Assembly (NCBI GenBank): GCA_012729555.1
Contig: JAAYCX010000011.1
Location: 1-64,000, forward strand
Length of the DNA: 64,000 nt
DNA from: Acidobacteriota bacterium
GTDB taxonomy: Bacteria; Acidobacteriota; UBA6911
Reading direction: 5' to 3'
The notes beneath the pieces are model-generated. The model saw only the letters and a list, made by a program, of their open reading frames with translations, did not search any database and was not told the origin of the DNA. Shown here one piece after another: positions 42,047 through 56,437 of the stretch; within the stretch, counting starts at the first letter, position 1, and every line of letters begins with the position of its first letter. The position numbers and the translations under genes are program-made.

Positions 42047-42268
42047 ATGAGTGCCCGTATTACCATCGGCCTGGAGGAATGCGTCGGCTGCAAGACCTGC
42101 GTCGAGGCGTGCTTTGTGGACGTGCTGCGCTGGGACGACGCCGCGGAGAAGCCGAGGATCGCCTACGCGGACGACTGCGTCTGGTGCTTCACCTGCGAAC
42201 TCAACTGCCCTGTCCGGTGCATCGCGGTCGAGCCGCACATGCAGCTTCGGCAGGTCCAACCGTATTGA
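42047..42268 (+). CDS. Two-[4Fe-4S] ferredoxin-type protein
   Basis: A 73-residue electron carrier or small subunit. The first cluster ligands are C-x2-C-x2-C-x3-C (ECVGCKTCVEACFVDVL). The second set is C-x2-C-x2-C-x3-C (DDCVWCFTCELNCPVRCI), with an extra cysteine four residues on. The first set lacks the usual Pro after its last Cys. The layout is like the FeS beta subunit partner of AprA/FrdA-type flavoproteins, and indeed such a flavoprotein gene follows after 13 bases. ATG 42047 has GGAGGCGGT in front. It probably feeds electrons to, or takes them from, the FAD of the next protein. Confidence 0.88.
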   Translation: MSARITIGLEECVGCKTCVEACFVDVLRWDDAAEKPRIAYADDCVWCFTCELNCPVRCIAVEPHMQLRQVQPY

Positions 42269-42281
42269 AAGGGAGCGGAGC

Positions 42282-44519
42282 ATGACGGAAACGGCAAGAG
42301 ACCCGGAGACGGCCTGGAGCTCCGATGTCCTCGTGATCGGCGGCGGCTTTGGCGGGCTCGCCGCCGCGATCCGGGTCAAGGAGTTGGCTCCGGACGCGAG
42401 CGTGACGCTCGTGGACAAGCAGACGATCGGCTGGGGGGGGAAGGCGAACAAGGGCGCCGGGGTGCTGTGGGTCCTCGGTCCCGAAGACGATCTCGACGCC
42501 TTCGTCGCCTATCACGTGAACCAGATCGGAATCTTCCTCAACGACCAGGAGCTGCTCCGCGCGATGGCGGCGGAATCGTACGGGGGGGTGAGGAAACTGG
42601 CGGAGTGGGGGGTCAAGGTGATGAAGACCCCTTCGGGGGAGCTGGACCTCAGCCGCCTGCCGTCCGGGTGGTCGCTGGCCGCCGTGGACCTGGACATGAT
42701 GCGGCCGCTGCGGGCGAAGGCCGCCAGGGCAGGGGTGAAGCTCGTCGACAAGACCCACCTGGTCGAACTGCTGAAGGAGGAGGGACGCGTCACCGGCGCC
42801 GCCGGGTTCCGTCTTCTCGACGGCCGCATGGCGGTCTTTGGCGCGAAGGCCACCATCCTCGCCAACGGCGACTGCGATTTCGGCGTCATGCGGATGTGGG
42901 CGAGTGCCACCGGCGACGGGATTGCGGCCGCCTATCACGCGGGCGCCGAAATGCGCAACGCGGAGTTCGGCAATTTCTACGATGTCGTCAACAAGGGCAC
43001 CGGCATCCCGGTCGTTTTCGGTTTCCACCATCTCTACAACGCCCGCGGCGAACAGATCAGTTCCAGGTACATCGAGGGGCCCCAGCCGGACATCCCGGTT
43101 TCGATCATCCTCGGGATGGAGCGTGAGGTCCTTGAGGGGCGCGGGCCCCTCTACGTCGACATGGAGGAGTACGGGAGCTCCATGGGGAACGGCGGAATCT
43201 TCAAATGGCACCGGCCGCACCTCGAGGCGCTGTTCGCGATCGAAGACGCCAAGGCTCGGCAATACGGCGCGCCCCCGGCGAAGCGGGTGGAGGCCTCGCT
43301 CGGTTTCACCGGGGAGCTTTCGCCGGTCAGGGTCGACCATGACATGAGGACGACGGTTCCGGGGCTCTGGGCCATCGGCGACACGAGCTATGCCGGCTCG
43401 GCGTGGGCGGGCGCGACGGAGGCTCCCCCCGGGAGGCTCCGGGGTTCGGGGCTGATGAACGCCCTGCTCGGCGCCCTGAGGGCGGCCCCCTCGGTGTCCG
43501 GCTCCCTGGCGGGGACGGCGCTCCCGTCGGCGGACCCTGCGGACGTGGCGCGCATCGAGGAGTCGATCTTCGCGCCGCTTCACCGGGAGGGAGGCGCCCG
43601 GGCGGAGGATGCCATCCGGGCCGTACAGGAGGTGGTGATCCCGGTCAGGTACAGCATGCGCCGGAACCGCGAGAGGCTCGAGGAGGCCCTGGACAGGATC
43701 GCGGCCGTCCAGGCCCGGCTGCCCGGGCTCGGCGCCAGGGACCCGCACGAGCTGGGCCGGTGCCATGAAGCCCGCGCCATTGCCCTGTGCGCCGAGATCG
43801 GGTTCCGCGCCGCCCTGGCGCGGACCGAAAGCCGGGGGTGGCATTACCGGGAGGACCATCCCCGGCGCGACGACGCGAACTGGCTCCGGTGGGTGATCGT
43901 GAAAAAGGGGGGGGACGGAATGGTCGTCGACACCGAGGCCGTCCCCGTGGAGCGCTTCAGGATCCAGCCCGCTCCGGCCGTGCCCGACGCGGTGGTCGAT
44001 CACGGCGAGCTGGTGGGCGTCACCCCCGAGATGATCGACTGGTGGTGGGTCAACATGGAGAAGGGCTACCCCCTGTGGGAACCGGAGGCCCACAAATCGT
44101 TCGTGTGGGAGGTGCCGCCCCCCGCGGGCGGCTACCTGGGCGCCATCCAGGTAGCGGAGGAAAAGATGGGCCCCCTGCCGCCGATGAAGATCCGGATCCG
44201 GTGGGACGACCCGGACCGCTGTCCCATCCGGCCGAGGTACGAACACGCGATCGTCGCTTCGGGAATCGATCCCGATGGGAACGTGGGAGCCATGATCCTG
44301 CACGAGTGGGAAGCCAGTCCCCGCGGGACCCGGATGCGGTCGACGATGCGCTTTTTCGGCCCCGTCCCTCCCAGGCTGCCGGAGATCTGGAAAGCGCACG
44401 ACCGGTCGGAAGTATCGACGTTTCCGGAATTCCTCCCCGATCTTTACCGATTGTGGCAGAGGGTCGAGGACCCGGCCATCAACAGGCAGTGTTCGCTGGC
44501 AAGGAAGCTTAAAAAATGA
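42282..44519 (+). CDS. AprA/FrdA-like flavoprotein fused to a PhlG-like hydrolase domain
   Basis: A 745-residue two-part protein. Residues about 1-565 form an FAD-dependent oxidoreductase of the fumarate reductase/adenylylsulfate reductase type. It has the dinucleotide motif DVLVIGGGFGGLAAAIRVKE, the substrate-side WGGKANKGAGVLW, the FAD site GLWAIGDTSYAGSAWAGATE and the C-terminal RGWHYREDHPRRDDANW. Residues about 575-745 resemble the zinc-dependent C-C hydrolase PhlG (2,4-diacetylphloroglucinol hydrolase). Seen there are GVTPEMIDWWWVNM, LWEPEAHKSF (probable metal His), RYEHAIVAS and LHEWEASPRGTRMRS. The fused domain is shorter than PhlG (about 290). AAAGGGAGCGGAG precedes ATG 42282. The 3' end overlaps the free-standing PhlG-like gene by four bases, and the ferredoxin gene lies just upstream. 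Reaction and substrate are unknown; coupling reduction to hydrolytic release of an acyl group is inference. Confidence 0.82.
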   Translation: MTETARDPETAWSSDVLVIGGGFGGLAAAIRVKELAPDASVTLVDKQTIGWGGKANKGAGVLWVLGPEDDLDAFVAYHVNQIGIFLNDQELLRAMAAESYGGVRKLAEWGVKVMKTPSGELDLSRLPSGWSLAAVDLDMMRPLRAKAARAGVKLVDKTHLVELLKEEGRVTGAAGFRLLDGRMAVFGAKATILANGDCDFGVMRMWASATGDGIAAAYHAGAEMRNAEFGNFYDVVNKGTGIPVVFGFHHLYNARGEQISSRYIEGPQPDIPVSIILGMEREVLEGRGPLYVDMEEYGSSMGNGGIFKWHRPHLEALFAIEDAKARQYGAPPAKRVEASLGFTGELSPVRVDHDMRTTVPGLWAIGDTSYAGSAWAGATEAPPGRLRGSGLMNALLGALRAAPSVSGSLAGTALPSADPADVARIEESIFAPLHREGGARAEDAIRAVQEVVIPVRYSMRRNRERLEEALDRIAAVQARLPGLGARDPHELGRCHEARAIALCAEIGFRAALARTESRGWHYREDHPRRDDANWLRWVIVKKGGDGMVVDTEAVPVERFRIQPAPAVPDAVVDHGELVGVTPEMIDWWWVNMEKGYPLWEPEAHKSFVWEVPPPAGGYLGAIQVAEEKMGPLPPMKIRIRWDDPDRCPIRPRYEHAIVASGIDPDGNVGAMILHEWEASPRGTRMRSTMRFFGPVPPRLPEIWKAHDRSEVSTFPEFLPDLYRLWQRVEDPAINRQCSLARKLKK

Positions 44520-45427
44520 CCGACGACAGAACCCGACCCGAAGGGCAGCACCCCCGGACCGATGCCCGGAGCCGGGCCGAGAGCCGGGCCAGGGCCGCGC
44601 TCCCCCCGCTCACGCCGGAGGAGGAGGCGCGTCCCTTCGCCAAATACTTCTACGAAGAGATGAAGCCGTGCGACCCGGCCCACTACGCGCTGATGGACCG
44701 GCCCGTGGACCCCGCCCGCGCCTTCGGCCCCGGGGAGATCAACCGGCTGCTGGACGTCGGGAGGCTGGAAACCGAAGAGGTGGAGACCGGCTGGTGCCTG
44801 CTGCCCGACGGCGTCGGCTTCGTCGCCAACCGGATGTTCCACCCCGGGGTGACGGCCGACATGATCGACTGGTGGTTCGCCTGGCACCCGCTCGAAGACC
44901 TGCGCTACCGCATCTGGTACCCGCCCGGGCACGCCGGCGTCGCGCTCGAGCGCGCCGACCGGGCGCGGATCCTCGATCCCGGCATCCCCAACCGGGAGAA
45001 GAACTGGGGGGTGACGCACCACGTGACGGAAAACTGCGGCTGCGGCATGGAGTCGATCGACATCGGCTTCCGCTCCCCGGCGGACATGGGCTTCGACATG
45101 GAGCGCTTCCACAGGGTGGCTGCGACCTTCGCCGGAGGGGAGGGGTGGTCGGTCCCGGTCGACGCCGGGGAGGACGCCGTCGCGGCGCCCGCCATCATGT
45201 GCCACGTATTCTACGAGGTCCCCGGCGGCCTGGTGCAGCGCACCCGCTTCTGGATGGGGTGCCGGTTTACGGGGCCGGGCAGGGCGCAGTCGTGCCTCCC
45301 GCCGGGCGTCGCCGTCCCCGCGGCGCCCGTCCAGGGCCTGGCCCGGCACAACGTGCGGGAGTTCACGCGCCTGGGCGACCTCCTGCCCCGCATCTACCGG
45401 GAACTGGGCCCTGGCCTGGAATGCTGA
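44516..45427 (+). CDS. PhlG-like (DAPG hydrolase family) protein
   Basis: A 303-residue protein matching the size of PhlG, a Zn-dependent beta-diketone hydrolase that removes an acetyl group from 2,4-diacetylphloroglucinol. The best family segments are HPGVTADMIDWWFAWHPLED followed by LRYRIWYPPGHAGV (first metal His), NWGVTHHVTENCGCG, and IMCHVFYEVPGGLVQRTRFWMG, whose H-x3-E pattern parallels that in the fused domain of the gene before. The first 35 residues are polar and probably disordered. It overlaps the flavoprotein gene by four bases (ATGA), so the two are coproduced. Catalytic residues are proposed by pattern, not by alignment. The substrate may be a different acylated phenol or 1,3-diketone. 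Confidence 0.8.
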   Translation: MTDDRTRPEGQHPRTDARSRAESRARAALPPLTPEEEARPFAKYFYEEMKPCDPAHYALMDRPVDPARAFGPGEINRLLDVGRLETEEVETGWCLLPDGVGFVANRMFHPGVTADMIDWWFAWHPLEDLRYRIWYPPGHAGVALERADRARILDPGIPNREKNWGVTHHVTENCGCGMESIDIGFRSPADMGFDMERFHRVAATFAGGEGWSVPVDAGEDAVAAPAIMCHVFYEVPGGLVQRTRFWMGCRFTGPGRAQSCLPPGVAVPAAPVQGLARHNVREFTRLGDLLPRIYRELGPGLEC

Positions 45428-46499: not shown

Positions 46500-47768
46500 T
46501 CAGGGGTCCTGGGCGGTGAGGGTGTATTCGATGACGAGGGAGGTGGAGCCCCCGCTCAGGGCGCCGAAATCGGTCACCTCCAGGGTGTAGCGAAGCGGTT
46601 GGTCGGTCACGCTCTCGCTCCCGATCCCGGTGACGAAATCGCGCGCGGTTTCCTCGAGTGTCACCGGCGCCGACGCCCGTTCGGTGTCCACGCCCAGGCG
46701 CAGCCCAGCGGGGAAGGCACCGCCGGCGATGCGGACCTGGATCTTGTTGGGGCTGTCAGGCCCGGCCGCCGAGGACCAGTTCATGCTCGAGGAGGCGTCG
46801 CTCACCGCAACCTGTCCCTGTCCGGCGGCGACGATGGCCGGGCCGATCGCCAGGGCGACGTCGTTGCGGACCGAGAGGGCCGTCCGCGGGGCGGGGTAGC
46901 GGACGATGACGACGCCCGATCCCCCGGACCCGCCGGCCGCGCCGCCGCCGGCTCCGCCGCCGCCCCCCCCGGTATAGGGAAGGGCGGGCACTCCCGGCGC
47001 GCCGGAAGGACCGCCGTCCCCTCCCCCGTGGTTTCCCGCTCCGGGAGCGTAGGTCAGTCCGGCTCCGCCTCCTCCGCCCCCGGCGAACCAGCCGCCGTTC
47101 AGATGAGCAAACCGGGGGAGGTGCAGGCCGGCTCCGCCCTCTCCCGCGGCCGCGGCCAGGGCGTCGCCTCCCGCACCCGCGCCCCCTCCACCCCCGCCTC
47201 CCCTGCCGGAGAAGCCGGAGCCGCCGTCGCAACCGGCCGAACCCGCGCCGCCCGGGATCGTGTTGGCGCCGTTGGTCGCGCCCCCGCCCCCGCCGCTCGC
47301 CCCCGGGAGGCCGCCCATGTTGCCGCTGCCCCCGCCCCCGCCCCCCCGGGCGACGAGCGGGCCGAAGGCCGATTCGCGGCCGCTCCCGCCCACGGCGTTC
47401 CCCGCTCCCCCCTGGCCCCCGGAGCCCACGGTGACGGTGACGGGTCCGGAGGTTTCGACGGAGGGTTCGTAAATCACCTCGCCCCCGCCGCCCCCGCCCC
47501 CGGCGCGCCGGGCGTTGTTGGAGCCGCCCCCGCCCCCGCCCGCGGCCACTATCAGGACTTCGACCCTGACGACGCCCGCGGCCGGGACAAAGGTGCCGCC
47601 CGAGGTGAAGGTGTGAACGACCTGGTCCCCCTCATAAGTGATGACGCCACCCGATTCACCCGCCGCGAACAGGGCGGCCGCCGATGCGAGGATCCCGAGC
47701 GGGACAAGGAGGCGCGCGAAAATCCCGTTCCGTCCGGAACGTCCTTGGGCCCCGGTTTCAGCGCGCAT
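46500..47768 (-). CDS. Glycine-rich exported protein with pilin-like C-terminal domain
   Basis: A protein of 422 residues. After an N-terminal signal segment (about 15-36) comes VHTFTSGGTFVPAAGVVRVE, the entry to a glycine-rich domain. Residues about 75-295 are dominated by runs of Gly with Ala, Ser and Asn, forming a low-complexity fibre-like region. The last 125 residues are different: SMNWSSAAGPDSPNKIQVRI, FPAGLRLGVDTERA, FVTGIGSESVTDQPLRYTLE, SGGSTSLVIEYTLTAQDP. They match the small subunit gene at 51355-51921 in order and spacing. The ATG overlaps the preceding large gene by 11 bases. In a chaperone-usher-like reading this would be a tip or adhesin subunit, but that role is inference. 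Confidence 0.75.
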   Translation of the reverse strand: MRAETGAQGRSGRNGIFARLLVPLGILASAAALFAAGESGGVITYEGDQVVHTFTSGGTFVPAAGVVRVEVLIVAAGGGGGGSNNARRAGGGGGGGEVIYEPSVETSGPVTVTVGSGGQGGAGNAVGGSGRESAFGPLVARGGGGGGSGNMGGLPGASGGGGGATNGANTIPGGAGSAGCDGGSGFSGRGGGGGGGAGAGGDALAAAAGEGGAGLHLPRFAHLNGGWFAGGGGGGAGLTYAPGAGNHGGGDGGPSGAPGVPALPYTGGGGGGAGGGAAGGSGGSGVVIVRYPAPRTALSVRNDVALAIGPAIVAAGQGQVAVSDASSSMNWSSAAGPDSPNKIQVRIAGGAFPAGLRLGVDTERASAPVTLEETARDFVTGIGSESVTDQPLRYTLEVTDFGALSGGSTSLVIEYTLTAQDP

Positions 47769-50562
47769 GGGTCACCCGCTCCTCTCCGCCGGGGGCGGGC
47801 CCGACGCGCCCCTCGTCGATGAAGCGGATGGCGCGCGGCCGCGGGAGGACGTGCACCGTGGCGCCGGCCCGGGCGCCGGGAGGGATCGTCACCGTTTGCT
47901 CCGCCCGCTCCAGCCGGTGGTTTTCGGGCAGGTTGCGTTCGTACACCTTGAGGGTCCAGGTTCCGGGGGCGAGTTTTTCGAAGAGGAAACGGCCGCTGGA
48001 ATCGGTGACGGTACGGCGGGTCTCCCCCGGCCGCGCCAGCTCCGCCAGGATGTTGGCGAGCCCTCTGGGCGCCCCCCCGGGAGCCTGCGCGAGCGCCACG
48101 CATCCTTCGAGGACGCCCGAGGCGCCCAGGGGGAGTTCGACCGCGGCGGAGCGGCCCCCCTCCACCGTGACGGTTACGGGGCCCGGGGCCGCAAGGACGT
48201 TTTCGATGCCGACGGAACGTTCGTCGACCCGTACCTCGTGGGCGCCCGGGGCCAGGGTGCGGAAGGTGAAGCGGCCGGCGCGGTCGGTGAGCGCCGCGGT
48301 TCCGCCGACGTAGACCACGGCGCCGGCGACGCCCGGGGCGCCGGGGAGGTCGGAGCGGAAGACGCGGCCGGCCAGCGAACCGACCGACTCCCGGCGGCGG
48401 AGCGGGACCTTGAAAGGGAGGTTGCAGGTCACGGAATAGGAAGTGTATTCCTCCCGGCCCAGGCCGCCGCTGCGGCGCGCGGCGAACTCCACCGCGGGTC
48501 CCCGGCGCGTTTTCCAGGTGAAGCCCGCCCCCCACTGGTCGCTCTCCACCCGCTCGCGCAGCGGCTCGTCGGGGAAGGTCGCGTCGTTGCGCGCATAGTC
48601 GAGGTAGGCGGAAAAAGCGCCCGCGGGGGCCCAGCGCACGCTCCCGCCGTGGTTGCGCCCCCGCCGCAGCAGGCGGCTCTCGCCCGGGGAGCCGTCGTCG
48701 CCGAAGCTCGAGGAGAAGGCAAGGAAGAGGTCCTTCCGGGGTGAGAAGGTGCCCTGGAGGTCGAAGTTCCAGCCGCCGTACCGGCGCCCGGAAGCGAGGT
48801 CCCGGCTCCGGCCCCGGCGCGCCTCGGCGCGGTACCCGAAGCGGCCGCCGCTGTGGCCGATGGTCAGGGCGACGCCGTGTTCCCGGAAACGGAAGGCCTC
48901 GGCGGCGGCCTCGGTCCGTTCGTAGCGGTCGTAGTCGACCCTCGCGTGGTGCCTGCCCGGCAGCCGGGCCTCGAGTCCCGCCTGGTAGCGGGTTTCCCGG
49001 GGGGCGGAGCCGCGGGCGGGGTCCGATTCGCGGTTGCGATCGTAGCGGTCGTAGGCGGCGCCGGCCCTCAGGCGCTCTCCCAGGGGGAGGGAGAGGGACC
49101 CGGAATAGGAGGCCGAATCGGGGTAGCGGCCGCCCCAGTCGCGGCCCCCCTGCCGGGCCGAGAGGTGGTAGCGCGCGGCCCACTGCGAGGGGCTCCGGAC
49201 CTCGAGGCTCCAGGCCGCATCGGATGCGGCGCCGGCCCGGTCGGTCCGGCTGACGCCGATTTCCCCCTTCAGGTGGTGCGAGAGCAGCCGGCGGGTTTCG
49301 GCGCCGAAGCTCCAGATATCCTCCCGGGCCGCGGGAGCGAGGCGCCACTCGTCGTAGGCCAGCGCCAGGAAGTGGGCCCGCACCGTCGTCCCGGGGGCCG
49401 GGTCCGCGGAAAGGAAGGCGCCCACGTCGCGCCGTTTCTGGAGCGTCCACCGGTCCTCGACGTAGTACATCCCCCCGGCCAGGGCGCCCCCGCCGATTTC
49501 TATTCCACCCCCCCGGCCGTAGCGGTGCCAGGAGGTCAGTTCGGACAGGGAGTAGGACTGGTCTCCCCCCTGGAGGCGGAGCAGGGGGTCCTCGTAGCGG
49601 AGCCGGTATTCGTCCCGGCGGCCCAGGGTCCCCCGGTCATGCCGGTCGGGCGCCTGGATCGAAAAATCGAGCCGGCGCCGGCGCGCCTCGTCGAGGTAGC
49701 CGTCCCCCTCGAGGCCGAACTGGATGGCCGAGCCGAAATTGTCCCCCCCGAGCCGGGTGAAGAATGTCACCGGGTAGCGCAGGTGAGTGTCCTGCCCCGC
49801 CACGCGGGGCACCACCTCGAGCGGGAGGGTGAGCGTCGCCTCCACCGCGCGGCCGGAAACGGTGCGGCCGGTGCGGGCGACGAGGCGCAGGTGGGACCGG
49901 GTCAGCCGGTCGGCGCGAGCGTCGGCCGCGGCGGTCACCTCGAGCAGGCGGCTTTCTCCGGCGGGGAGGGCAAAGGCCTGCGGCGCGACGGCCGCGTGTC
50001 CGGCCGTACCCATCCCGGCCTCCAGGGCGACGGCCAGGTCCGCGTTCCCCCGGTTGAGCAGCCGGATTTTCAGGTGGAGGTTTTCCCCGGCCGCGAGCCG
50101 CTCCGGGGGAGCGTCTTCGGGCTGCAGGGTCAGATTGTAGACGGGCGAAATCATGATCCGGGCGGCGGCCCGGTCCGAAAGGGCGTAATCGGCGCGGCCG
50201 GAAGCGGCATAGACGATTTCGTATTCTCCGGCAGGCGCGGCGCCCCCGGCCCGGACCACGACCATCCGCACCACCGATTCGGCCGGCTCCAGTTCGAAAT
50301 CGACCAGCGGCATCACCAGGCGCCAGCTTTCGGGGAGCGTCACCGCCTCGCGCATCGGCACCCGATCGTGCCAGCGGTTGGTGACGCGAAAGGCCAAAGT
50401 CAGGATCCGCCCCGGTTCGGCCTCCACCGTTTCGCCGGCGACCGGCCGTACCTCCAACCCCGCGGGCCCGGCGGACAGGGACGGGGCCCAGAGAAGCAGG
50501 AGCAGCCCGGCGCCCCGAAGGAAGTTGCGGTGCGGGGAAACCCTAGCGGATTTCCAGCTCAT
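47758..50562 (-). CDS. Outer-membrane barrel-like protein with Ig-like and carboxypeptidase-regulatory domains
   Basis: A 934-residue envelope protein from ATG 50562 (GGAG six bases upstream, inside the end of the chaperone-like gene). A signal peptide (about 1-31) precedes two Ig-like segments (LEVRPVAGETVEAEPGRILT; LHLKIRLLNRGNADLAVAL). From about residue 255 to 700 runs an Arg/Tyr-rich alternating beta pattern (RYPVTFFTRLGGDNFGS, RLQGGDQSYSLSELTSW, YSVTCNLPFKVP) suggesting a beta barrel. Two carboxypeptidase regulatory-like units follow (SLAGRVFRSDLPGAPGVAGA; GRFLFEKLAPGTWTLKVYE). It has the size and position of an usher, yet I see no PapC/FimD signature, and the two regulatory domains at the C-terminus are unusual for one. 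The C-terminus lacks a terminal aromatic residue. Confidence 0.7.
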   Translation of the reverse strand: MSWKSARVSPHRNFLRGAGLLLLLWAPSLSAGPAGLEVRPVAGETVEAEPGRILTLAFRVTNRWHDRVPMREAVTLPESWRLVMPLVDFELEPAESVVRMVVVRAGGAAPAGEYEIVYAASGRADYALSDRAAARIMISPVYNLTLQPEDAPPERLAAGENLHLKIRLLNRGNADLAVALEAGMGTAGHAAVAPQAFALPAGESRLLEVTAAADARADRLTRSHLRLVARTGRTVSGRAVEATLTLPLEVVPRVAGQDTHLRYPVTFFTRLGGDNFGSAIQFGLEGDGYLDEARRRRLDFSIQAPDRHDRGTLGRRDEYRLRYEDPLLRLQGGDQSYSLSELTSWHRYGRGGGIEIGGGALAGGMYYVEDRWTLQKRRDVGAFLSADPAPGTTVRAHFLALAYDEWRLAPAAREDIWSFGAETRRLLSHHLKGEIGVSRTDRAGAASDAAWSLEVRSPSQWAARYHLSARQGGRDWGGRYPDSASYSGSLSLPLGERLRAGAAYDRYDRNRESDPARGSAPRETRYQAGLEARLPGRHHARVDYDRYERTEAAAEAFRFREHGVALTIGHSGGRFGYRAEARRGRSRDLASGRRYGGWNFDLQGTFSPRKDLFLAFSSSFGDDGSPGESRLLRRGRNHGGSVRWAPAGAFSAYLDYARNDATFPDEPLRERVESDQWGAGFTWKTRRGPAVEFAARRSGGLGREEYTSYSVTCNLPFKVPLRRRESVGSLAGRVFRSDLPGAPGVAGAVVYVGGTAALTDRAGRFTFRTLAPGAHEVRVDERSVGIENVLAAPGPVTVTVEGGRSAAVELPLGASGVLEGCVALAQAPGGAPRGLANILAELARPGETRRTVTDSSGRFLFEKLAPGTWTLKVYERNLPENHRLERAEQTVTIPPGARAGATVHVLPRPRAIRFIDEGRVGPAPGGEERVTHAR

Positions 50563-51343
50563 ACCGGGCTCCAAAGACCCGCTCGTCCCCGCCGTCGGCC
50601 ACGACGATGGCCCGGTAGGTCCCCGGGGCGATCCCGTCCAGGTCGATCCGGACGCGGCCGGAGTCGGCCGGGTAGAGCCCCTTGCGCCCCCCCTCGAAGC
50701 GGCCGGCGGGGATCCCTTCGCGGTCGAACAGGTCCGCCCAGAGGTGGAGCCTGAGGTAGCGGTCCCCGGCGTTTTCGAGGTCGAGAAGGAGCGCCGCGCC
50801 CTTCTCCCCCTGTTCGAGGCGCCGGTCGGCGAATTTCAGCTCCGCGTGCCCGGTCCCCGCGATGTGGGTGGCCAGGTGGATGCCGGTCCGGGTGACGGTG
50901 CGGATCCCCACCCCCCCCCTGGTGGCCCCGGGGGCCAGGGTTTCGGGGGCCACCGGTTCCACCATGAGCATGCTCCAGTAGCTGCCGGCCAGCCGGGGAT
51001 CCTGCGGGACCCGGATCACGTAATGAAACGACGCCGTGCAGCCCGGGGCGATCTCCTGCTCCCGGGGGACGAGGTGGATCCACGCGGCGCTCGAGCGGGG
51101 GGACTCCCCGGGCTCCCCGTAAACGGTGCGCCCGTCGGCGGTGGCGTGATACCCGGTCAGGTAGACGCGCGCCGTCTGCGGCCGGTCCCCGCCGTTACGC
51201 ACCAGGACCTCCCCCTGGCTCTCGGCCCCGGGGGCGAGTTCCACGTGCCGGCTGAGATCGCCGACCACGTGGACCTGCGCCCGGGCCGCGCCGGGGAGCG
51301 CCAGCGCCGCCAGCAGCGCTATCGAGAAAGCGATGGTTTTCAT
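50543..51343 (-). CDS. Periplasmic chaperone-like protein (two Ig-like domains)
   Basis: A 266-residue exported protein from ATG 51343. The signal peptide ends ARAQ at about residue 23. The mature part starts VHVVGDLSRHVELAPGAESQ, a strand-rich Ig-like domain reminiscent of the COG1470/pilus-chaperone type (EVLVRNGGDRPQTARVYLTGY, FHYVIRVPQDPRLAGSYWSM). A second domain follows from about 150 (LKFADRRLEQGEKGAALLLD; LHLWADLFDREGIPAGRF). It lacks the catalytic or conserved Arg/Lys pair that I would need to call a FimC chaperone. The gene lies 11 bases after the small subunit gene and its 3' end overlaps the large barrel-like gene by 20 bases. The name is by arrangement and fold pattern. Confidence 0.68.
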   Translation of the reverse strand: MKTIAFSIALLAALALPGAARAQVHVVGDLSRHVELAPGAESQGEVLVRNGGDRPQTARVYLTGYHATADGRTVYGEPGESPRSSAAWIHLVPREQEIAPGCTASFHYVIRVPQDPRLAGSYWSMLMVEPVAPETLAPGATRGGVGIRTVTRTGIHLATHIAGTGHAELKFADRRLEQGEKGAALLLDLENAGDRYLRLHLWADLFDREGIPAGRFEGGRKGLYPADSGRVRIDLDGIAPGTYRAIVVADGGDERVFGARYELEIR

Positions 51344-51354
51344 GACGGTTTCCG

Positions 51355-51921
51355 CTAGGCCCCTTCGGTCAGGGTGTAGGTGATGGTGATGCTCGTTCCC
51401 GACATGGGAACGACGTCGCAGGCTTCCTCGCATTCGACCGTCTTCAGCCCGTACTGCAGCTTGACTCCGTCGGAGTCGGCCGCGGCGCCCGTATACCCGC
51501 TGCCGATTCCGGTGACGATGTCGATGGAATCGTTGGTGGTCAGTTCCACCTGTTCCTCGGCGCTCCCAAGGTCGCCGCAGTTATCCGCACTCTCGGCGCT
51601 GATTTCGAGCACGAGCCCTTCGGGCATGTCGCTGCCGAGCTGGGCCGTGATCTTGCGCGTCTTGCCTTCCTCGACGATGGAGGTGTACTGGAGATACTTG
51701 ACCGCATCCGCCGGCTGCGTGACCGAAAAAGCCTCCCCGGCCGTGGTCGGGGCGCCGATGCCGAAGACCAGCGTAGAGGCGTCGTCGAGCCCCAGCAGGG
51801 CGACCTCGCTGACGTTGATGGTAATGTCGTGGCTGGCGGTGGCGGTTTCGGCCGAAGCCTGGCCGGCGCCCAGGGGAAGGAGGGCTCCGGCGAAAATCAT
51901 CATACCGAGTGTTCGTTTCAT
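51355..51921 (-). CDS. Small exported pilin-like structural subunit
   Basis: A 188-residue protein from ATG 51921, with AAGGAGAG seven bases upstream. The signal peptide ends ASA-E at about residue 24. The mature protein begins ASHDITINVSEVALLGLDD and has VKYLQYTSIVEEGKTRKITA, MPEGLVLEISAESADNC, DIVTGIGSGYTG, LKTVECEEACDVV and the end SGTSITITYTLTEGA. The C-terminal half matches the last 125 residues of the glycine-rich protein. The overall look is that of DUF4402 or spore-coat-U-type fimbrial subunits, including alternation of hydrophobic residues in the last strand. Three cysteines could form one disulfide. It is the first gene of the four-gene cluster, so likely the major subunit. Confidence 0.7.
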   Translation of the reverse strand: MKRTLGMMIFAGALLPLGAGQASAETATASHDITINVSEVALLGLDDASTLVFGIGAPTTAGEAFSVTQPADAVKYLQYTSIVEEGKTRKITAQLGSDMPEGLVLEISAESADNCGDLGSAEEQVELTTNDSIDIVTGIGSGYTGAAADSDGVKLQYGLKTVECEEACDVVPMSGTSITITYTLTEGA

Positions 51922-53224: not shown

Positions 53225-53389
53225 GTCCGCAGTCAGGCAATGTTTCACGACCACGTTCCGGGATAGGCCAATGAGGTACGTTCCGACGGTTGCCGCTCCG
53301 CTTTGGATCGACAGCGGTGTTTTTCCCGTTTTCACCCCCCTCTTCAACCGCCTGCATCTTTCCGGCCTGCCGGCTCATGGAGGAGTATT

Positions 53390-56300
53390 GTGAAAGTCAC
53401 CAGACGCGGATTTTTCAAGATCACGGCCGCGGGATCCACGAGCCTGGCGGCCATGGGTTTCTCCCCCGCGGCGGCGCTCGCCCAGGCGCGGCGGTTCAAG
53501 CTCCAGCGCACGAGCGAGACCCGCAACACCTGTCCCTACTGCTCGGTCGGGTGCGGCCTCATTCTCTACGGGCTCGGGGACCATTCCAAGAACTCGCGAG
53601 CGGCCATCATCCACATCGAGGGGGACCCGGACCATCCCGTAAACCGCGGCACCCTCTGCCCGAAGGGGGCCAGCCTCATCGATTTCATCCACAGCCCCAA
53701 CCGGCTGAAATATCCTGAATACCGGGAGCCGGGGGGGACGGAGTGGAAGCGCGTCACCTGGGACTGGGCCCTCGACCGGATCGCGCGGCTGATGAAGGAG
53801 GACCGGGACCGGAACTTTCTGGAAAAGAGCGGCGCCCTCACCGTCAACCGCTGGACGACCACGGCGTTTCTCGCCGCTTCGGCGTCCTCGAACGAGACCG
53901 GGTATCTCACCGTGAAGGTGCTGCGCGCGCTCGGGATGACGGCCCTGGACAACCAGGCCCGGGTTTGACACGGCCCCACGGTGGCCGGTCTGGCCCCCAC
54001 CTTCGGTCGCGGCGCGATGACGAACAACTGGGTCGACATCAAAAACGCCGACGTCATCCTGGTCATGGGCGGCAACCCCGCCGAGGCGCACCCCTGCGGA
54101 TTCAAGTGGGCGATCGAGGCCAAGATCCGCAAGGGCGCGCGTCTCATCGTCGTGGACCCGCGCTTCAACCGCACGGCCGCGGTCGCGGACGTCTACGCGC
54201 AGATCCGCCCCGGCTCCGACATCGCCTTCCTGGGCGGTGTCATGCGCTACCTGCTCGCGAATGACCGGATCCAGCACGACTACGTGCGCCGCTACACCAA
54301 CGCCCCGTTCCTGGTCCGGGAGGATTTCGGTTTCGAGGAGGGGCTCTTCAGCGGCTACGACGGCGCCGCGCGCCGCTATGACAGGAGCAGCTGGGCCTAC
54401 GAGCTCGACGCCGAAGGTTACGCCAGGGTCGACGAATCGATGCAGCACCCGCGCTCGGTGCTGCAGCTGATGAAGCGGCACTACGAACCCTACACCCCCG
54501 AGGCGGTGGCCGGCGTCACCGGCGTGCCGGCGGAACGTTTCCTCGAGATCTGCGACCTCATCGCCTCGACGGCCGCGCCCGAGCGGACCCTGACGAGCCT
54601 GTACGCGCTCGGATGGACGCAGCACACGGTCGGGAGTCAGAACATCCGCGCGATCGCCTGCATCCAGCTCCTGCTGGGGAACATGGGGATGCCGGGCGGG
54701 GGGGTGAACGCGCTGCGGGGCCACTCGAACATCCAGGGGCTGACCGACCTGGGGGTGATGAGCCACCTCCTCCCCGGCTACCTCGGCATCCCGACGGAGG
54801 CGGAGCCCGATCTCGGGACCCATCTCGCCCGGCGCACGCCGAGGCCGCTGCGGCCGGGGCAGATGAACTACTGGCAGAACTACCCGAAGTTCTTCGTTTC
54901 GCTCCTGAAGGCGTGGTACGGCCCCGCCGCCACCCGGGGAAACGACTTCGCCTACGACTGGCTGCCGAAGAACGACAAGGTCTACGACATCCTGCAGGTG
55001 TTCCAGCTGATGGCCGAGGGGAAGGTCCACGGCTACGTCTGCCAGGGGTTCAACCCGCTGGCCTCCGTGCCCGACAAGGGGAAGCTGTCGTCGGCGATGG
55101 CGAAGCTCAAGTTCCTCGTGGTCATCGACCCGCTCGCGACCGAGACCTCGAACTTCTGGCAGAACCACGGCGAGTTCAACGACGTGGACCCCGCGGCGAT
55201 TCCAACCGAGGTCTTCCGCCTCCCCTCCACCTGTTTCGCCGAGGAGGAGGGTTCGCTCGTGAACTCCGGCCGCTGGCTGCAGTGGCACTGGAAGGGGGCG
55301 GAGCCGCCCGAGGAGGCGCGGGGGGACGTCGAGATCATGGCCGGTCTCTTCACGCGCCTGCGCCGGCTGTACGCGGCCGAAGGGGGCGCGTTCCCCGACC
55401 CGGTCCTCAACCTGTACTGGCCCTACCGGATCGAGGCGGTGCCGTCGGCGGAGGAGCTGGCGCGGGAGTTCAACGGCTACGCCCTCGAGGACATCCCCGT
55501 GCCGGGACGACCGGGAAAGTTCCTGGCGCGCCGGGGGGAACAGGTGCCGGGCTTCGGCGCCCTGCAGGCGGACGGGCGGACCGCCTGCGGCTGCTGGATC
55601 TACGCCGGCTGCTGGACCGAGGCGGGCAACCAGATGGCGCGGCGCGACCCCGCCGACCCCTACGGTCTGGGCGTCACCCCGGGCTGGGCCTGGTCCTGGC
55701 CGGCCAACCGCCGCATCCTCTATAACCGCGCCTCGGCCGACGCCGGGGGGCGCCCCTGGGACCCGGAGCGAAAATACGTGTTCTGGGACGGGGAGCGGTG
55801 GGGGGGGGCCGACGTCCCCGACTACAAGGCCGACAGCCTTCCGGAGGACGGCATGGGCCCCTTCATCATGAACGCGGAGGGGGTCGGCCGCCTCTTCGCC
55901 CTGGGCGGGATGGCCGAAGGCCCCTTTCCCACCCACTACGAGCCTTTCGAGACCCCGCTCGGCGGCAACCGGTTCGCGCCCCGGGCCGTCTCCAACCCCG
56001 CCGTGCGCCTGTTCGAGGAGGACCGGGAAAAGCTCGGAGGGGCCGACGAGTTTCCCTTTGTCGCCACCACCTACCGGCTGACCGAGCACTTCCACTTCTG
56101 GACCAAGCACGCCGGGATCCCGGCCATCCTGCAGCCGCAGGCCTTCGCCGAGATCGGCGAAGGCCTGGCCGAGCTGCGCGGCATCCGAAGCGGGGACATG
56201 GTCGTGGTCCGGTCACGCCGCGGCCGGATCCGGCTGGCGGCCCTGGTGACGAAGCGCATCCGCCCCCTCCAGGTCGAGGGGAACACGGTGCACCTGGTGG

Positions 56301-56437
56301 GGCTTCCGCTGCACTGGGGGTTCGACGGGCTGACCCGGCCGGGGCACCTCGTCAACACCCTGACCCCCTTCGTGGGGGACCCGAACGTGGAGACCCCTGA
56401 ATTCAAGGCCTTCCTCGTCGACATCCAGAAGGCATAG
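53390..56437 (+). CDS. fdnG: Formate dehydrogenase alpha subunit, selenocysteine-containing
   Basis: The molybdopterin catalytic subunit that oxidises formate to CO2 and passes electrons to quinone through the beta and gamma subunits. It has 1015 residues from GTG 53390 (GGAGGAG upstream). The Tat signal is VTRRGFFKITAAG, so it acts in the periplasm. The FeS site is CPYCSVGCG ... LCPKGASLIDFIHSP. The codon TGA at 53966-53968 (residue 193) is read as selenocysteine: flanking residues NQARV and HGPTVAGLAPTFGRG match the Sec site of FdnG-type enzymes, and a SECIS hairpin follows at once. The rest, with MGGNPAEAHPCGFKW and WPANRRILYNRASADA, continues in frame to TAG 56437. A conventional gene finder would split it in two. 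Sec machinery genes are not in the window. Confidence 0.93.
53969..54001 (+). promoter_or_regulatory. Bacterial SECIS element for the fdnG TGA codon
   Basis: Directly after TGA 53966-53968, GGTGGCC (53980-53986) pairs with GGCC and the downstream ACC (53992-53995, 53999-54001) with a small bulge, around the loop GGTCT (53987-53991). The E. coli fdnG SECIS as I recall it has the same GGUCU loop and the same 18-base distance from UGA to the loop. SelB binding to this loop is expected. Confidence 0.85.

Follow-up and report, generated by a model that had tools for sequence, protein, structure and literature searches.

A probable divergent chaperone-usher operon in a genome of the Acidobacteriota

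E. coli makes its pili with a chaperone-usher machine, and systems of this kind are usually counted by means of models of the usher and of PapD. The window analysed here, a stretch of 64,000 nucleotides from the draft genome of an Acidobacteriota bacterium (3.8-Mb, 98 contigs, 98.9% complete), carries on its minus strand four genes in an order that recalls such a machine, and none of the four products is matched in Pfam by the PF00577 usher model or by the PapD models (NCBIfam gave nothing relevant). A reading made from the sequence alone had remarked on both points, the resemblance and the absent PapC/FimD and FimC signatures, and had proposed that the cluster may be a separate type of secretion or fibre assembly. 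Is it, then, a separate type, or a chaperone-usher system that the models overlook? With good probability, we conclude, the four genes make up a divergent chaperone-usher system in the form of a minimal operon, and in the way it works it resembles the chaperone-usher systems that build fibres.

The genes are transcribed in the order P0001 (subunit), P0002 (chaperone), P0003 and P0004 (Table 1). An 11 bp gap separates the stop of P0001 from the start of P0002, P0002 and P0003 overlap by 20 bp (50543-50562) and P0003 and P0004 by 11 bp (47758-47768); the open reading frames, their coordinates, order and overlaps are thus as they had first been read. A Sec-type signal peptide can be recognized by eye at the start of each protein, in agreement with the view that all four would be exported. 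In a congener (G004) P0003 and P0004 are encoded side by side, with amino-acid identities of 86% and 84%, and since they are kept there with dN/dS values of 0.34 and 0.33, we regard both as real, selected genes; the G004 contig stops within the chaperone gene, which shows 92% identity over 26 aa. Two other regions of the window, both on the plus strand, deserve mention. A formate dehydrogenase-like gene (53303-56437) contains an in-frame TGA at 53966, in NQARV-U-HGPTV, which is most likely a selenocysteine codon. At 42051-45427 an FAD-dependent reductase-like protein has a C-terminal stretch that, by eye, resembles the product of the next gene, the motif TxxMIDWWxx being common to both; two adjacent genes there are, also by eye, possibly of a related hydrolase type.

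Table 1. Features of the four-gene cluster, with window positions and the evidence for each
Feature	Position	Strand	Evidence
P0001, putative fibre subunit, 188 aa, signal peptide	51355..51921	-	ORF; no Pfam family; homologous to P0004 C-terminal domain by alignment
P0002, putative periplasmic chaperone, two Ig domains, 266 aa	50543..51343	-	Profile matches to cluster chaperones, 6e-12 and 1.7e-10; family matches PapD_N, CsuC, WxLIP
P0003, usher-like outer-membrane protein, 934 aa	47758..50562	-	Pfam, linkage, fold matches
P0003 N-terminal region, residues 32-250, probably two Ig/NEW3-like domains	49813..50469	-	Weak Pfam NPCBM_assoc, 0.016, at 73-121; remainder by eye
P0003 predicted barrel, residues 256-725	48388..49797	-	Partial model; barrel-anchored alignment; Aminicenantes homolog model
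P0003 two C-terminal sandwich (CarboxypepD_reg/CnaB-like) domains, residues 729-905	47848..48378	-	Pfam 5e-13, two stretches; pLDDT about 76-91
P0004, tip-adhesin-like two-domain protein, 422 aa	46500..47768	-	Pfam; P0001 alignment
P0004 glycine-rich domain, residues 57-291	46896..47600	-	Pfam Gly_rich_2, 6e-17
P0004 C-terminal subunit-like domain, residues 291-422	46503..46898	-	Alignment with P0001

One may ask whether the large protein belongs to the system at all. P0003 could be an unrelated barrel, a porin or a receptor, which carries CnaB-like domains and is by chance the neighbour of an adhesin and a chaperone. The gene neighbourhoods argue against this. With P0002 alone as the query, matches were obtained in 23 of 396 genomes of the phylum, and at all of the 20 loci for which neighbourhoods were fetched a large protein (679-1136 aa) is encoded near the chaperone on the same strand, downstream of it in 18 cases. 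These proteins were recognized with an iterative HMM grown from P0003; the C-terminal domains that they have in common made it easier for them to enter this HMM, on which neither their position nor their strand depends. At the downstream loci the two genes nearly adjoin or overlap slightly, or, in the case of Aminicenantes, are about 1.1 kb apart, with as many as two more genes for small subunits in between. The reverse search, for which the query was restricted to the barrel region of two groups, matched 10 of 297 genomes, and a chaperone adjoins the match in nine of them; two genomes added in this way (G093 and G148) have chaperones that fit the family profile (2.5e-47 and 4.8e-51), and the tenth, whose match is weak (2e-6), has no chaperone. 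When P0003's own barrel region was the query, a strong match was obtained in G004 only. The synteny that the sequence-only reading had proposed to look for is therefore conserved for the chaperone and the usher-like protein. PF00577, for its part, finds matches in 9 of the 199 phylum genomes searched, but nowhere in the whole genome of the host and in no member of a 19-member alignment of P0003 homologs. In one genome (G064, contig 75; L047 and L060) the chaperone and large protein of the present family have an usher recognised by Pfam at a distance of about 13 kb, and in Aminicenantes (L033-L041, L075-L089) a gene for a sigma-54-type response regulator usually precedes the cluster.

The C-terminal carboxypeptidase-regulatory domain that had been assigned to P0003 is recognized by Pfam, and its N-terminal Ig domain finds a match to NEW3/Ig that is weak (0.016). 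A model of residues 256-934, built with 12 sequences, has a pLDDT of 48, with about 12 strands partly ordered and most of the barrel below pLDDT 50; the two C-terminal beta-sandwich domains, which are a feature of ushers and which Pfam also finds, are well formed. By eye, about 24-26 alternating segments can be counted between residues 256 and 725. The best structural matches of this model are tandem CnaB-type pilin domains, followed by FimD chains (1.7e-8 to 4.9e-7), and FimD/PapC ushers are the only outer-membrane barrels that it matches below 1e-3. An Aminicenantes homolog (L089), modelled with 15 sequences to a pLDDT of 65.6, shows about 26 consecutive strands (residues 46-534) and then two C-terminal beta-sandwich domains; its seven best matches in the PDB are FimD/PapC ushers (Foldseek, 3.6e-8 to 1.8e-6), and SlpA, MtrB-type, BtuB and LptD barrels rank behind them. 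As TM-scores to ushers are low (0.12-0.32 over both models, about 0.22-0.32 for that of L089), the likeness is one of topology, and the model behind it is rough. The loops of the L089 model reach about 19 residues at most, so that no inserted plug is predicted, and the barrel-anchored alignment leaves no room for one in P0003 after the GD...RG stretch (residues 333-361). That alignment replaced one of full-length P0003 with the Aminicenantes ushers, in which Ig domains were mispaired with barrel strands. The description of P0003 as barrel-like is thus supported for the family, the window's protein being itself only partly modelled as a barrel, and of the large barrel with a plug that would support an usher-like pore, the barrel is predicted in the homolog and the plug is not. 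A home-made strand-alternation score (z of 4.3 for P0003, 1.9 for FimD and 0.5 for the Aminicenantes homolog) does not discriminate and was not counted, and PDB searches with P0001, P0002 or P0003 as single proteins gave chance matches only.

Domains of the CarboxypepD_reg/CnaB-like kind are common, and the significant sequence matches of P0003 are limited to them; this, together with the weakness of the structure models, is what an unrelated barrel would lead one to expect. Yet relatives in the same gene position connect the family to known ushers. A plug-like segment is present in phylum members L043-L045 and in plasmid-borne L054-L057 (Polaromonas, Sphingopyxis, Pseudoalteromonas), and the profile of this plug-type group aligns over its whole length, plug on plug, with FimD and the recognised ushers of the phylum (hhalign, probability 99.1, E 3.9e-19). 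Judged by this alignment, the plug-bearing relatives of P0003 are homologs of true ushers. P0003 in turn matches the plug-type profile at 4.7e-8 and that of Aminicenantes at 7e-10, mainly via the C-terminal region, which is also what mainly joins the Aminicenantes, L040/L046 and Deinococcus groups to the plug-type members; the short GD...RG stretch joins all these groups, the window's included, to the plug type as well, and is suggestive only. No significant sequence match was found between the barrel of P0003 and any usher. Because the sequence matches comprise mainly the C-terminal region and this short stretch, the link between P0003 and ushers is one of gene position, architecture and fold rather than of direct barrel homology. 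With the linkage seen at all 20 fetched loci and nearly always in the reverse direction, with fold matches that single out ushers among barrels, and with true usher homologs in the same gene position, we find it very improbable that P0003 is an unrelated barrel.

A close counterpart of the window's cluster is found on plasmids of Polaromonas and Sphingopyxis, in an unnamed system annotated as DUF4402, 'molecular chaperone' and 'carboxypeptidase-like regulatory'. Gene order and domain plan are the same, the chaperones are homologous to P0002, and the usher-like protein is likewise without a PF00577 match; on the other hand, the plasmid ushers have a plug, which the window's branch appears to lack, and the plasmid subunits match DUF4402, which P0001 does not. 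Since L054 and L056 are on plasmids typed as conjugative, adjoining IS elements in Polaromonas sp. JS666, the plug-bearing cluster can probably move between bacteria; P0003 itself had no match among plasmid sequences. A plasmid of Deinococcus sp. NW-56 (L058:2291-7864) encodes an usher-like protein, with an N-terminal region that looks Ig-like as in P0003, and a chaperone-like protein that matches the Aminicenantes chaperones at 4.5e-17. Matches in Deinococcus radiodurans MP1 were left out of account, since it is the C-terminal region that produces them. The distribution comprises several families of Acidobacteriota, plug-bearing relatives on plasmids of Pseudomonadota and, probably, the NW-56 case. 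Of 19 usher-like homologs, 4 appear to have an additional SPOR domain at the C-terminus (L039, L040, L043 and L045, assigned by reading their long C-terminal tails), and so does L057; through this domain the pore may be attached to peptidoglycan.

For the chaperone the connection is more direct at the level of the family, although P0002 alone gives nothing meaningful in Pfam, PapD_N included. By profile, P0002 aligns over its full length with the chaperones of Aminicenantes and of the plug-type systems (Table 1). PapD_N is matched by 5 of 20 family members (best 2e-7); the chaperone of the Polaromonas cluster, annotated as a fimbria/pilus periplasmic chaperone beside DUF4402 subunits, scores above Pfam's PapD cut-off; and the family profile matches the chaperones that adjoin Pfam-recognised ushers at 4e-27 to 1e-10. 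On these comparisons the family is homologous to the chaperones of chaperone-usher systems. FimC and EcpB, taken as single sequences, had no match to the profile, and matches of the latter to FAP81, OCRL and a sialidase were set aside as generic Ig similarity.

The same profile raises a second alternative. Its best match in the PDB is EfmWxLIP1 (1.6e-8, both domains covered), ahead of the Gram-negative pilus chaperone 4ncd (0.025) and of CsuC (0.13, or 0.0085 with a smaller set), and WxLIP_PGBD is matched by 10 of the 20 members. In Gram-positive bacteria WxLIP acts as the partner of WxL proteins, and WxL systems are not known to have an outer-membrane pore. The window could therefore encode a WxL-like surface complex in a diderm, where the two-Ig protein stays with two surface proteins, one small and one large, as their lasting partner, the barrel only anchors or exports them, and no polymer is formed. 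The tandem Ig domains of P0002 are as in the WxL partner protein, and P0001 and P0004, a small and a large protein with a C-terminal domain in common, mirror the layout of WxL clusters (PMC10599100). However, no WxL or WxLIP model of Pfam matches any window protein, so that the likeness is at the level of the chaperone family only, and WxL motifs, peptidoglycan binding and the membrane helix of WxLIP were not found in the window's cluster. Up to four different subunits per cluster in the Aminicenantes relatives, linked plug-bearing usher homologs, chaperones above the PapD cut-off and the predicted outer-membrane pore also fit this alternative poorly, and we consider it unlikely.

The remaining two proteins are in line with a chaperone-usher fibre. 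P0001 gives nothing meaningful in Pfam; it has an N-terminal strand of alternating hydrophobic residues and a terminal ITITYTLT strand. P0004 aligns with P0001 over its own last 132 residues, at a score of 73 (shuffled sequences 32.5 +/- 5.6, 0/1000 reaching 73), with D-x-VTGIGS and a final TS-x-x-I-x-YTLT strand in common, and by this alignment the C-terminal domain of P0004 is homologous to the subunit. Many of the small exported proteins encoded around related chaperone loci end in a T-x-T-Y/F-T-L-like strand as well. Tip adhesins of usher systems, such as FimH, carry an extra domain N-terminal to their subunit domain; P0004, encoded last in the operon, has the same two-domain architecture, with a Gly_rich_2 domain in front of the pilin-like one, and is a candidate tip adhesin on this ground.

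Among known systems, those nearest to the preferred reading, a divergent chaperone-usher system, are the archaic and alternative pathways (Csu and ECP types), whose operons hold the same set of subunit, two-Ig chaperone, large barrel (a predicted one in the window) with two sandwich domains and two-domain tip-like protein, and to which profiles lead through CsuC and, by way of relatives, through true ushers. The window's proteins differ from theirs in having no Pfam usher or PapD match and no visible plug, in the two Ig-like domains that P0003 has in place of the usher N-terminal domain, and in the glycine-rich tip domain of P0004. They also differ at the chaperone: in non-classical chaperones an Arg in strand F of domain 1 anchors the C-terminal carboxylate of the subunit (PMC4654587), while the aligned position reads YW in P0002, YH in Aminicenantes and YR in several other groups. 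As P0002 has Trp there, its subunit anchor is probably a different one. The changed anchor and the predicted absence of a plug are, as far as alignment and model indicate, real departures from chaperone-usher systems. In the window's branch neither a match to the usher model of Pfam nor a plug was found when they were looked for, and we therefore class it as a divergent variant that intermediates join to the chaperone-usher family, not as a member in the plain sense. Those same intermediates leave the proposal of a separate secretion type unsupported, whereas the resemblance to chaperone-usher systems is borne out by synteny, the usher fold match, the plug-bearing homologs of true ushers and the tip-adhesin-like fourth gene. 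Divergence has carried the proteins too far for single-family models to recognise, which is why no PapC/FimD or FimC signature is seen.

The system would then work as follows. Sec would carry all four proteins to the periplasm, where P0002 would hold subunits by lending them a strand; P0003 would take the chaperone-subunit complexes at the outer membrane and pass them out by way of its pore. The fibre, in which subunits would be joined by donor-strand exchange, would be handled as it grows by the two C-terminal sandwich domains of P0003. P0004, without an N-terminal donor strand of its own, would lead as the tip and probably bind surfaces. In a plugless branch the pore would have to be gated by loops, by the N-terminal Ig domains or by a subunit that stays behind in it.

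In the open-access literature, to which the search was confined, we found no mention of DUF4402, the subunit family of the related plasmid clusters, and nothing on the present system where ushers are treated together with WxL or with carboxypeptidase-regulatory domains; a prior description elsewhere is possible. For the scan of the collection a close Aminicenantes subset took the place of the full usher alignment, whose diversity was too great. The divergent branch is unannotated at present: P0003 and its kin are missed wholly by the usher model and their partners often by the chaperone model, and fibre assembly outside Pseudomonadota is therefore undercounted. A plugless usher would allow a direct test of the need for the plug in gating and export, and through the chaperone family the pilus chaperones of Gram-negative bacteria can be connected by sequence with the Gram-positive WxLIP proteins. 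At this point we may only suggest, with rather more doubt than conviction, that Acidobacteriota, and probably Deinococcota, possess a new clade of plugless ushers that are gated otherwise and served by a chaperone family linking the PapD type to WxLIP, so that usher-built pili and WxL complexes would share descent from one strand-lending partnership.
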